Below, in pieces: positions 61,082 through 64,000 of a DNA stretch of 64,000 nt; the first letter of the stretch is position 1; each line of letters opens with the position of its first letter. Under the pieces are notes generated by a model. It saw only the letters and a list, made by a program, of their open reading frames with translations, did not search any database and had not been told where the DNA came from. Source of the DNA: Microbulbifer sp. SAOS-129_SWC (GTDB taxonomy: Bacteria; Pseudomonadota; Gammaproteobacteria; Pseudomonadales; Cellvibrionaceae); contig NZ_CP155567.1 in the NCBI RefSeq assembly GCF_039696035.1, positions 3,033,001 through 3,097,000 of the forward strand, read 5' to 3'. The translations under genes were made by a program, and so were the position numbers.

Positions 61082-62371
61082 ATGCTGAGCTGGGACGACA
61101 TCGACAAACAGCCCCAACAACCGAAAAGAGCCTTCAGCGAGAACGCGAAGGAAACCGAACCGCGACCGGCGCCGGACACGCTGCAAAACGAAGTAGCTGA
61201 GCCGAGCCCCAACTACGCAGCACCCAGTGCTCCGGCGTCGCCAGCGGCCCAATCCCCCGCAGCCTCCGCGGACGCCGCTTCCGCCGTTGCCGCTGCACGG
61301 GCCGCCGTAGCCGACCTGGACCCCGCCCCGGGTCTGGAAGAACTGGAAATGGGTGCCGCGCGCATCGAAGTAGATGAGAAACGCATCATCAACTGCCGCG
61401 CCGACCTGAACCAGCTGGTACCGTTCAAGTACGACTGGGCCTGGCAGAAATACCTGGATGGCTGCGCCAACCACTGGATGCCGCAGGAAGTGAACATGAA
61501 CAAGGACGTGTCCATGTGGAAAGACCCCGAGGGTCTGACCGAGGACGAGCGTCGCATCGTGGAATACTCCCTGGGCTACTTCTCCACTGCCGACTCCCTG
61601 GTAGCCAACAACCTGGTGCTGGCCATCTACCGCCACATCACCAACCCGGAGTGCCGCCAGTACATCCTGCGCCAGTCCTTCGAGGAAGCCATCCACACCC
61701 ACGCCTACCAGTACTGTGTAGAGTCCCTGGGCATGGACGAAGGCGAAGTGTTCAACATGTACCGCGAAGTGCCCAGCGTCGCCAAGAAAGCCGCCTGGAG
61801 CCTCAAGCACACCCAGTCAATCGGCGATCCCAACTTCAAGACCGGCACCCCGGAGACCGACCAGGAACTGCTGCGCAACCTGATCGCCTTCTACGCGGTG
61901 ACCGAGGGCATCTTCTTCTACTGCGGCTTCACCCAGATCCTGTCTATGGGCCGCCGCAACAAGATGACCGGCGTAGCCGAGCAGTTCCAGTACATCCTGC
62001 GCGACGAGTCCATGCACCTGAACTTCGGCATCGACGTGATCAACCAGATCAAGCTGGAAAACCCGCACCTGTGGACCGAAGCCTTCCAGCAGGAAGTGAG
62101 CCAGATGATCCTCGAAGGCATGGAACTGGAAGTGGCCTACGCCCGCGACACCATGCCCCGCGGCGTACTCGGCATGAACGCGAACATGATGGAGGAATAC
62201 CTCCACTTCATCGCCAACCGCCGCCTCAGCCAGCTGGGCCTGAAAGAACAGTTCCCGGGCGCACAGAACCCCTTCCCCTGGATGTCCGAGATCATGGATC
62301 TGCGCAAGGAGAAGAACTTCTTCGAAACGCGGGTTATCGAATACCAGACTGGCGGTGCGCTGCAGTGGTAA
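61082..62371 (+). CDS. nrdB: Class I ribonucleoside-diphosphate reductase, beta subunit
   Basis: Di-metal radical subunit, 429 aa. Metal ligands in [36 protein letters not shown] and [10 protein letters not shown]. The C-terminus [16 protein letters not shown] carries the conserved tail that docks on NrdA. Residues about 1-100 are an unusual Pro/Ala-rich, probably disordered extension before the ferritin-like core. AAAGG lies upstream of ATG 61082. Confidence 0.96.
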
Positions 62372-62441
62372 CACGATGAATACCGACAGGTAGCAAAAGG
62401 ACAACTACAAAAAGTAGTCGCTCACAGGAAGAGAGGTATTG

Positions 62442-62469
62442 AAAGCGGGCGTTATGCCCGCTTTTTTTT
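62442..62469 (+). terminator. Rho-independent terminator after nrdB
   Basis: AAAGCGGGC-GTTAT-GCCCGCTTT followed by a long T-run, 70 bases past the nrdB stop. Confidence 0.93.
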
Positions 62470-62753
62470 GCACAAAAATACGGAAAACCTCCCAGATCAC
62501 GAGACGCATCGTCTATACACCGACCAAAGAAACCCAAGTGATTGATTTCAAAAGGGTTTCCAAAAAGATCAAGCGACACTGACGACAACCTGATAATGAG
62601 ATGCGTCGCGTTTCGCCCGGCGGCAGAGACCACCATAGAGTTGTAAGGCATTGAATATAAAGGTTTACTGAGATATTTAATGACGTGGGCTCTTTGGATA
62701 GACGACAAGTAGATAACAAGACGCGTCTTATTAATAAACTGTTAAAGAGCGCT
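62470..62753. other. Junction between core genome and cassette DNA
   Basis: About 284 bases in which composition shifts to AT-rich. I find no clear attI or attC. A weak pair, ACAAC near 62590 and GTTGT near 62640, could be a decayed recombination site. No integrase gene lies on this side. Confidence 0.4.
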
Positions 62754-63356
62754 ATGGAATATCGCAAGAACATAGAAAGAGTCTTTGGAAACCATGCCTT
62801 CGACCATGCTCTTTTTTATCAGTACGAAAAGGCATTAAGGTTTGAACTCTCTGTATCTGGATCAGCTATAGAAATGTTTACTACCGCTTGGAGAAAGGCA
62901 GAAGCAATACTTTCTGACGTGCTTAGTGAGGACAACGATTTATATGCTTGCTGGAGCTTCTATGGGGCTAGGACATACTTGTCTTCGCTAAGTGTTTTTC
63001 GTGAGATTGCTGGATGTGGCATAAAAATTCCAAAACTAAACGAGAATTGGTGTGAAGTTGATGAGGATGATAGCGACTATTTTAGGCACTTCTTACTTTT
63101 CAAGATCTCTAGCTCGACTGCGAAGAGTTTACTTTGGGGCGCATTAGCCCAGGATCTTGGAATTCGTCCTAGAATTGTTGGCAAAGTCCACCTTGTTAAT
63201 TTAGAAAGTCAAATACTTGTCCATCCTTATGATGATCGAGGAATGGATATCTACTCAACTGATGCCAAGTTGATGCAAAATCTGTTTGACCGGTTCAACA
63301 GCTACTTGCTTGATTACGATAGAGACATAATGGAGGGTGTCTATGGCACTCTTTAA
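62754..63356 (+). CDS. DUF3885-like protein on a gene cassette
   Basis: 200 aa from ATG 62754 (MEYRKNIERVFGN). The N-terminal half (FYQYEKALRFELS) and the C-terminal motif HPYDDRGMDIYSTDAKLMQNLFDRFNSYLLDYDR match the pattern I associate with DUF3885, whose function is unknown. A GTG at 62685 would add 23 residues; neither start has a strong ribosome site. Codon and base use is much AT-richer than every other gene here, and the stop codon lies inside an attC site. Both point to acquisition as an integron cassette. Confidence 0.75.
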   Translation: MEYRKNIERVFGNHAFDHALFYQYEKALRFELSVSGSAIEMFTTAWRKAEAILSDVLSEDNDLYACWSFYGARTYLSSLSVFREIAGCGIKIPKLNENWCEVDEDDSDYFRHFLLFKISSSTAKSLLWGALAQDLGIRPRIVGKVHLVNLESQILVHPYDDRGMDIYSTDAKLMQNLFDRFNSYLLDYDRDIMEGVYGTL

Positions 63357-63434
63357 CAAGCGCAGTCACAGCGATGGTTTTTTCGTTACGGCTTCGCCTT
63401 CACTACAAAGCCACGCGTGCTGCGGGCGTTATAG
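63351..63434 (+). mobile_element. attC recombination site 1
   Basis: R'' CTTTAAC (63351-63357) pairs with R' GTTATAG (63428-63434), 6 of 7. L'' CGCAG-T-CAC (63361-63369) pairs with L' GTGCTGCG (63417-63424), leaving one extrahelical T. Three-base unpaired spacers (AAG and GGC) separate R and L boxes on both sides. This is the folded attC architecture recognised by integron integrases; the cut would fall after G63428. Confidence 0.85.
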
Positions 63435-63716
63435 AGGCGGGTTCACCGTTTAAAAGTGGCCCGTGGTTTAAGAAATTTTCGAGTGGTTTGGTAGCGGTCA
63501 ACCGGTAGCTACGCAGAGAATTCCAAGCTCGGAAGTTTCGCTCCTAGTGCCTTCGCTCAGGTTCTAGGTATCGGCAATTCCAATGCAGTATTGTGGTTTG
63601 CCACTAAGAGAAAAATTGGTTGGGGGAAGCAAGGTATTCTTTCCTCGTTTATATCGGGCGGTGGCCCGCCAATCCGTGGCGGGCAAAGTGGAGGTAGGTC
63701 GTGCAGAGCGCGCCTG
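63435..63716. mobile_element. ORF-less cassette between the two attC sites
   Basis: About 280 bases bounded by attC1 and attC2. I find no credible reading frame; it contains a GCCCGCC-N7-GGCGGGC hairpin (about 63664-63684). Non-coding cassettes occur in chromosomal integrons and may carry promoters or RNAs. The minus-strand frame across 63557-63820 lies mostly over attC2 and is not a gene. Confidence 0.6.
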
Positions 63717-63828
63717 CTATAACTAGGCCAGGCAGGCACGCCCAGCCCCTTCGGGGCTCGGCTGGACGGCCTACGCGGCGCGCTTCGCACGCCAAACGCT
63801 CCGGCCGCCCCTGCTGGCAACGTTATGT
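63717..63828 (+). mobile_element. attC recombination site 2
   Basis: R'' CTATAAC (63717-63723) and R' GTTATGT (63822-63828). L'' GCCAG-G-CAGG (63727-63736) pairs with L' CCTGCTGGC (63810-63818) leaving one extrahelical G. Three-base unpaired spacers TAG and AAC. An inner stem AGCCCC-TTC-GGGGCT lies in the loop. Same geometry as attC1 and same orientation. Confidence 0.88.
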
Positions 63829-63846
63829 GTTAGTGAGAAAGGGCGG

Positions 63847-64000
63847 ATGATTGATCTGATCGATGGCGTTAAAGCGGGCGGTTGCGGACGGATATTGGTG
63901 AAGCATTTACTGCGTCTTATCTATGCCCTGATTTGTGCAGTGGTTTTAACTGGATTGGTTCGGTTTTTGCTCGGGAAGGAAGAGGTTGTCCCAATAAACG
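63847..64000 (+). CDS. Start of a small membrane protein on the next cassette (C-terminus off window)
   Basis: Open frame from ATG 63847, 18 bases after attC2, running off the window after 51 codons. GAAAGGGCGG lies just upstream. The protein begins MIDLIDGVKAGGCGRILVKH and has one hydrophobic helix (LLRLIYALICAVVLTGLVRFLL). I do not recognise it. Position right after an attC site is what a cassette gene should have. Confidence 0.55.
   Translation, partial: MIDLIDGVKAGGCGRILVKHLLRLIYALICAVVLTGLVRFLLGKEEVVPIN

Follow-up and report, generated by a model that had tools for sequence, protein, structure and literature searches.

How can an array of integron cassettes begin, and be supplied, at a chromosomal site that has no integrase gene? 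The integron is usually described as one platform, made up of intI, attI and the array. In the window, i.e. the whole 64,000-nucleotide stretch of the Microbulbifer sp. SAOS-129_SWC genome that was analysed, a first-pass annotation had proposed two attC sites belonging to a cassette array beside nrdAB without an adjacent integrase, and this proved correct. Both sites (84 and 112 bp) lie exactly where they had been placed, and the geometry described for them, with 7-base R boxes, 3-base spacers and a single extrahelical base (T in one, G in the other) at the same position, was confirmed, as was the location of the upstream gene's stop codon (63354-63356) within R'' of the first site. A covariance model, the check that had been suggested, was built from 14 attC that all lie outside the window (seven came from the same array beyond it and seven from two other arrays), and matched the first site with an E-value of 2.8e-5 and the second with 1.9e-7, both values being rough and calculated for 264,000 bases; nothing else in the window matched the model at E up to 1. 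In a separate attC scan the two sites scored 21 and 20 points against a threshold of 15, at which ten shuffled windows gave 0-2 hits per strand. Three minus-strand hits in the window, with 15 to 17 points, found no support from the covariance model, and Rfam at gathering level returned no match in the window, attC included.

The array comprises 23 attC, all on the plus strand, at genome positions 3096351-3107886, so that 21 of them lie to the right of the second window site and the array extends 11 kb beyond the window. In 20 of the 23 cassettes R'' and the R' of the same cassette are exact reverse complements, with cassettes 16, 18 and 20 one base off. The features of the locus are collected in the table.

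Features of the nrdB locus and of the start of the cassette array, in window positions.
Feature	Position	Strand	Details
nrdB	61082..62371	+	ORF; chromosomal gene adjoining the array
nrdB terminator	62447..62470	+	Stem-loop plus T run
Orphan attI unit	62491..62744	+	254 bp; HMM match
Palindromic blocks of the attI unit	62503-62513, 62600-62609, 62720-62727		Three in all, sequence-related
attI core CTTATTAATAAACTGTTA	62727..62744	+	Putative crossover G|TT at 62741, placed from the cassette boundary
Cassette 1	62742..63428	+	687 bp; own R' GTTAAAG / R'' CTTTAAC exact match
Cassette 1 gene	62754..63356	+	200 aa, DUF3885 (PF13021), E 8.9e-36
attC of cassette 1	63351..63434	+	attC scan and covariance model
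Cassette 2	63429..63822	+	394 bp; longest sense ORF 47 aa
attC of cassette 2	63717..63828	+	attC scan and covariance model
Cassette 3 start	63823..64000	+	Array runs on beyond the window, 23 attC in total

Among ten array proteins searched against Pfam, two gave matches to five families, all below the cut-off and one of them alpha/beta-hydrolase-like, and eight gave no family; a defence-gene search of the same number of array proteins returned two weak matches (E 0.0027 and 0.0064). Cassette 5 is a copy of cassette 2 (98.5% identical), and a cassette of 393-394 bp without a long sense ORF recurs through the genome (cassette 2 of the window, A5, C1, C4, C8, C12, E1 and F4, forming in C4 the final 393 bp of a longer stretch). 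It exists as two sequence types, about 75% alike across 302 bp, stands first at an attI twice (C1 and E1), and may harbour a promoter or encode an RNA. One cassette of the window's array also contains a repeated element of ~1.1 kb with a transposase-like ORF (L012 10700-11668), presumably IS30-like; copies of this ~1085-bp element, 100% identical, occur in cassettes of three arrays (also B2, B4 and C15).

The annotation had missed the head of the array, an attI unit that precedes cassette 1. It had likewise missed that the gene upstream of the first attC, whose stop codon does lie inside the site, belongs to a first cassette bounded by attI. The unit begins about 120 bp 3' of nrdB, between the nrdB terminator and cassette 1, and was matched over 258 bp (E 8.3e-32) by an HMM of 21 intI-linked attI regions from the genus; it can also be aligned with the sequence next to each of the genome's two integrases. 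The core ends in CTGTTA and cassette 1 starts exactly with the GTT of that end, the first-cassette insertion signature being exact. No sigma-70 consensus promoter that might serve as the cassette promoter Pc was found in 62380-62800, a search region that includes the attI unit. Across the genus, the left and middle palindromic blocks resemble the right block of their own unit more than the blocks of other units (for 55 orphan sites, i.e. those lacking a nearby intI, 0 of 1000 permutations reached as high a likeness for left or middle block, and for 21 intI-linked sites 8 of 1000 and 0 of 1000), a likeness that is only suggestive because related units share blocks by descent.

The genome is a single contig of 4.63 Mb in which TIGR02249 detects one intact intI at 1.23 Mb and a second at 1.39 Mb, with scores of 422.6 and 414.1 bits (cut-off 265) and no stops; over the whole genome nothing else exceeded the cut-off, and no intI lies near the window. 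The genome search for intI that had been proposed therefore upholds an integrase-less locus, the nearest intI being >1.7 Mb from the window's array. A CTG-N10-CAG box, which we take to be a motif of the LexA kind, lies upstream of both genes, and the closest integrases in named records (five, with 80-88% identity) are all from Microbulbifer.

The window's unit is one of at least 11 attI-type sites in this genome, two intI-linked and nine orphan, with eight of the nine orphans heading arrays. Seven sites have an exact core, two of them beside intI; all seven head arrays and in all seven R'' of the first cassette matches the attI-proximal R'. When the search was relaxed to one mismatch the core gave 10 hits, against 2 in a reversed-pattern control, and looser searching added two further full-type units, at 2537041 (minus strand, heading an attC cluster; HMM E 1.2e-33) and at 558382 (E 1.4e-10), together with two core-only sites, 4221965 and about 254.5k, which head attC clusters and rest on the core, iterated motifs and the first-cassette signature, since their HMM results were E 0.83 and unlisted respectively. 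Full-type orphan units thus stand at the head of five arrays besides the window's own, namely D (split by an IS), E, F, G and that at 2537k, whilst the six unbroken exact-core units have a mutual identity of only 48-65%. The unit at 558382 (minus, L251) faces attC at 555-556k whose orientation is opposite to its own; since no attC was found in its own direction, it was not counted as an array head, and it may be an empty orphan attI. No attI head was found for the 555k attC cluster or for a site at 1825k, where ten tandem copies of GCTGTC (1825541-1825600, minus, L254) lie within an apparent attC loop. Genome-wide there are at least 78 attC, 150 of 4281 candidates having been scored.

Orphan attI are widespread in the genus. 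Exact cores numbered 99, in 34 of 48 genomes, against 0 for a reversed-pattern control; 21 lay 336-414 bp from an intI and 78 had none within 3 kb, a division of 78:21 that is not the ratio for all attI types, because one core was counted and several integrases without it have other attI types. At 63 of the 78 orphan cores the fetched downstream DNA contained at least one attC. Judged by the start of the HMM match, the orphan unit is 239-279 bp long in 43 of 78 cases and 283-293 bp in six, and in six more it reaches 322-396 bp towards intI, into the region of the LexA box and intI start. The other 23 are shorter and include core-only sites, the IS-split L191 and L152, which is cut by a contig end. 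Searching the 1.6 kb upstream of the 78 orphans with tblastn revealed an intI remnant at one (L158), with only 37 bp available at L152. Cores were present in 34 of the 43 genomes with an intI match and in none of the five without (hypergeometric P 0.0012), one of these five genomes being 80% complete. A simple link between core and intI is nonetheless contradicted by half of the genomes that have orphan cores (16 of 32), in which no intI stands beside an exact core; those of their integrases that were inspected adjoin other attI types. The genus integrase table, restricted to matches at E up to 1e-40, holds 74 matches, 53 of them lacking the exact core within 3 kb. Some of the genus integrases adjoin attI with different ends (L070, L256 and L257 with TATGAATAAAACTGTTA; L067, L075 and L080 with AAATGTTA), which means that several intI-attI types exist in the genus.

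A second orphan type shares the attI core alone, preceded by motifs that are iterated and in part palindromic, for example ATATGGCCAT/ATATCTGG (L121, L129, L138, L139, L140, L150, L206 and L213, with 254.5k and 4221.9k in the own genome). Nine of 13 core-only sites have an attC within 1.5 kb, eight of these nine with the exact junction signature, a figure matched by 1 of 10,000 permutations. None of 13 integrases inspected (the attI side being visible in 11) has an upstream region of this type. Outside the genus the core was found in 10 of 96 family genomes, at 17 sites, where tblastn detected intI beside two and a 64-aa intI-like fragment at one more. L271, with neither unit nor attC, looks like a chance match. 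One genome of another genus (G092) carries five cores, the 64-aa fragment lying near one of them, and no intact intI was found in its assembly of about 850 contigs, which likewise speaks against a simple link between core and intI.

Comparison of the nrdB-downstream locus in related strains, as had been recommended, revealed a region that varies between species rather than uniformly ordinary intergenic DNA. Of the 48 genus genomes, 47 contain a match to the last 329 aa of nrdB; leaving this genome aside, identity is 95-99% in 45 and 80% in G034. Similar stem-loops lie 3' of nrdB in relatives. An exact core lies within 5 kb of nrdB in four of the 47 (this genome, G026, G046 and G047); among 30 nrdB loci compared, the attI unit is present in four and a different short attI-like site in three (G015, G017 and G033). 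Within about 1.45 kb 3' of nrdB, attC occur in this genome, G046, G047, G017 and G033, and in a longer stretch also in G026. The outcome that the annotation itself had named as fatal, no covariance match and the same ordinary intergenic DNA in all relatives, was thus not found: both attC were matched and the locus is variable. The nrdB unit of this genome is only 57-59% identical to those of G026, G046 and G047, which is compatible both with one insertion followed by fast change and with repeated occupation.

Several signs of use are visible at the orphan sites. Of 55 that have an attC within 1.5 kb, 44 show an exact 7-base match of R'' and R', against a mean of 3.5 and a maximum of 11 in 10,000 permutations; the corresponding figure for intI-linked sites is 16 of 18. 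(No attC was found in the first 1.5 kb at 23 of 78 orphan and three of 21 intI-linked sites, several of them at contig ends.) Orthologous sites in different species were paired where the units were at least 78% identical and the left flanks aligned over at least 700 bp, and the first 250 bp of cassette 1 were compared. First cassettes did not match in 14 of 15 such orphan pairs (nine loci; in the pair L187/L197 about 90 bp of cassette was comparable) or in three of three intI-linked pairs. At the nrdB attI of G026 and G047, upstream of which no intI was detected in either genome, the units are identical at 248 of 251 positions and the 1220-bp left flanks are 97% identical, whilst the first cassettes are unrelated. 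Within the own genome, cassette C8 of an intI-linked array and F4 of an orphan array are identical over 393/393 positions. C1 and E1, each the first cassette of its array, agree at 384/393 positions (97.7%) although the attI units beside them are only 65% identical (164/251), which implies that divergence of the two attI preceded the arrival of the cassette. Judging from these sequence features, the orphan attI look functional.

The integrase-less array begins at a real attI, and we consider it probable that IntI from one or both of the genome's platforms elsewhere acts on it in trans. The anatomy of attI and attC, the insertion signatures, the turnover of cassettes at orphan sites and the cassettes common to intI-linked and orphan arrays can all be read directly from the DNA; action of IntI in trans, and which IntI would serve which site, we infer from them. 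The orphan arrays might instead be former complete integrons that have lost intI, their attI and cassettes now inert, and for this speak the six orphans that extend into the region of the LexA box and intI start, the intI fragment at L158, the half of the orphan-core genomes with no intI beside an exact core, and the common occurrence of intI pseudogenes in integrons, as stated in a passage of PMC2426708. The cassette turnover could also date from an era when each locus had an intI. Inert relics are nonetheless an unlikely explanation: first cassettes differ in nearly all orthologous orphan pairs, even beside the near-identical nrdB attI of G026 and G047, whole cassettes are common to different arrays, and more than half of the orphans (43/78) retain the 239-279 bp unit although an intI fragment is detectable upstream of L158 alone. 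We regard as very improbable an ordinary CALIN that arose when cassettes were inserted off target into attG sites of the genome, off-target insertion being one of the routes proposed for CALINs in PMC8618304. Against it stands the attI unit that heads the array, which is homologous to intI-linked attI and has counterparts at five more arrays of the genome. There is next to no chance that the array's own integrase lies just beyond the window's right end; the sole point in favour is that the window ends inside the array, and in a single-contig genome with only two intI over the cut-off neither is there.

How the orphan units arose is a separate matter. Some are plainly products of intI deletion, given the six that reach the LexA-box/intI-start region and the one that retains an intI fragment, and in a tree of 76 of the 99 units (23 short ones were dropped) orphan and intI-linked units are interleaved, the supported branches requiring no fewer than 10 changes of label. 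The window's unit may derive from loss of intI from an integron copy, from duplication of the unit, or from both. That the unit is a discrete module copied to new places without intI is possible but rather doubtful. In G092 three units on different contigs are 92-96% identical over about 317 bp with unmatched first cassettes, and both comparisons involving L266 break off on the left at one and the same base, a pattern suggesting that the unit was copied by itself; the left edge lies 239-279 bp from the core end in 43 of the 78 Microbulbifer orphans, and units of one genome can cluster in the tree (L135-L137 of G013). Against this, no copying enzyme or mechanism was seen, the common left edge could equally mark the end of a functional region, L266 has the 64-aa intI-like fragment upstream and so is possibly a former platform, L268 and L270 share further sequence and dispersed repeats leftward, and in the own genome the six unbroken units with an exact core are only 48-65% identical.

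Under the preferred reading, in which orphan attI are served in trans, IntI would be produced by one or both intI-attI platforms of the chromosome and would bind the scattered double-stranded attI units, into which the folded attC of circular cassettes would be recombined at G|TT, so that one genome would run many parallel arrays. It is quite possible, and we put it forward tentatively, that Microbulbifer and some relatives have distributed integrons, in which stand-alone attI modules of ~250-320 bp, dispersed over the chromosome, would each found an array of their own and one or two integrases under SOS control would supply them all in trans. If attI works in trans at many places, then cassette capacity, expression and stability would be spread over the chromosome, each array would have its own first position for expression, and many arrays filed as CALIN would be active integration platforms, the label hiding live sites. 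It would also provide a way of testing why CALINs are located at conserved loci, and a naturally occurring collection of attI variants from which to learn how IntI recognises attI.

Amongst known systems, the array shares with the complete integron an attI followed by attC cassettes on one strand, and lacks the intI next to attI. It also resembles a sedentary chromosomal integron, with attI, tandem cassettes whose attC have the same orientation, matching R'' and R', and small genes, most of which, as far as they were searched, matched no family, but a sedentary integron is one platform, whereas here the locus has no intI and each genome several arrays led by attI. It is not an In0, which has intI without cassettes, there being no intI and 23 cassettes. 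Cassette insertions at attG sites outside the main integron were reportedly described by Loot and colleagues in 2024; they too place cassettes outside the main integron, but target a short genomic site and not, as here, a 254-bp homologue of an intI-linked attI. In full-text literature outside subscription journals we found no paper on Microbulbifer with integron and attC, nor one on an 'orphan attI' integron, and in literature on multiple attI or on CALINs with attI no title or abstract opening named an attI-headed CALIN. Where passages of PMC12444791, PMC2426708, PMC8618304 and PMC11023631 define CALINs, attI is not mentioned, and a passage of the first reports CALINs at conserved loci in Xanthomonas. 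With at least two attC and no proximal intI the window's array falls within the CALIN definition; it differs from a CALIN derived from attG, which has no attI at its head, and from CALINs generally in combining a conserved attI head with cassette turnover.
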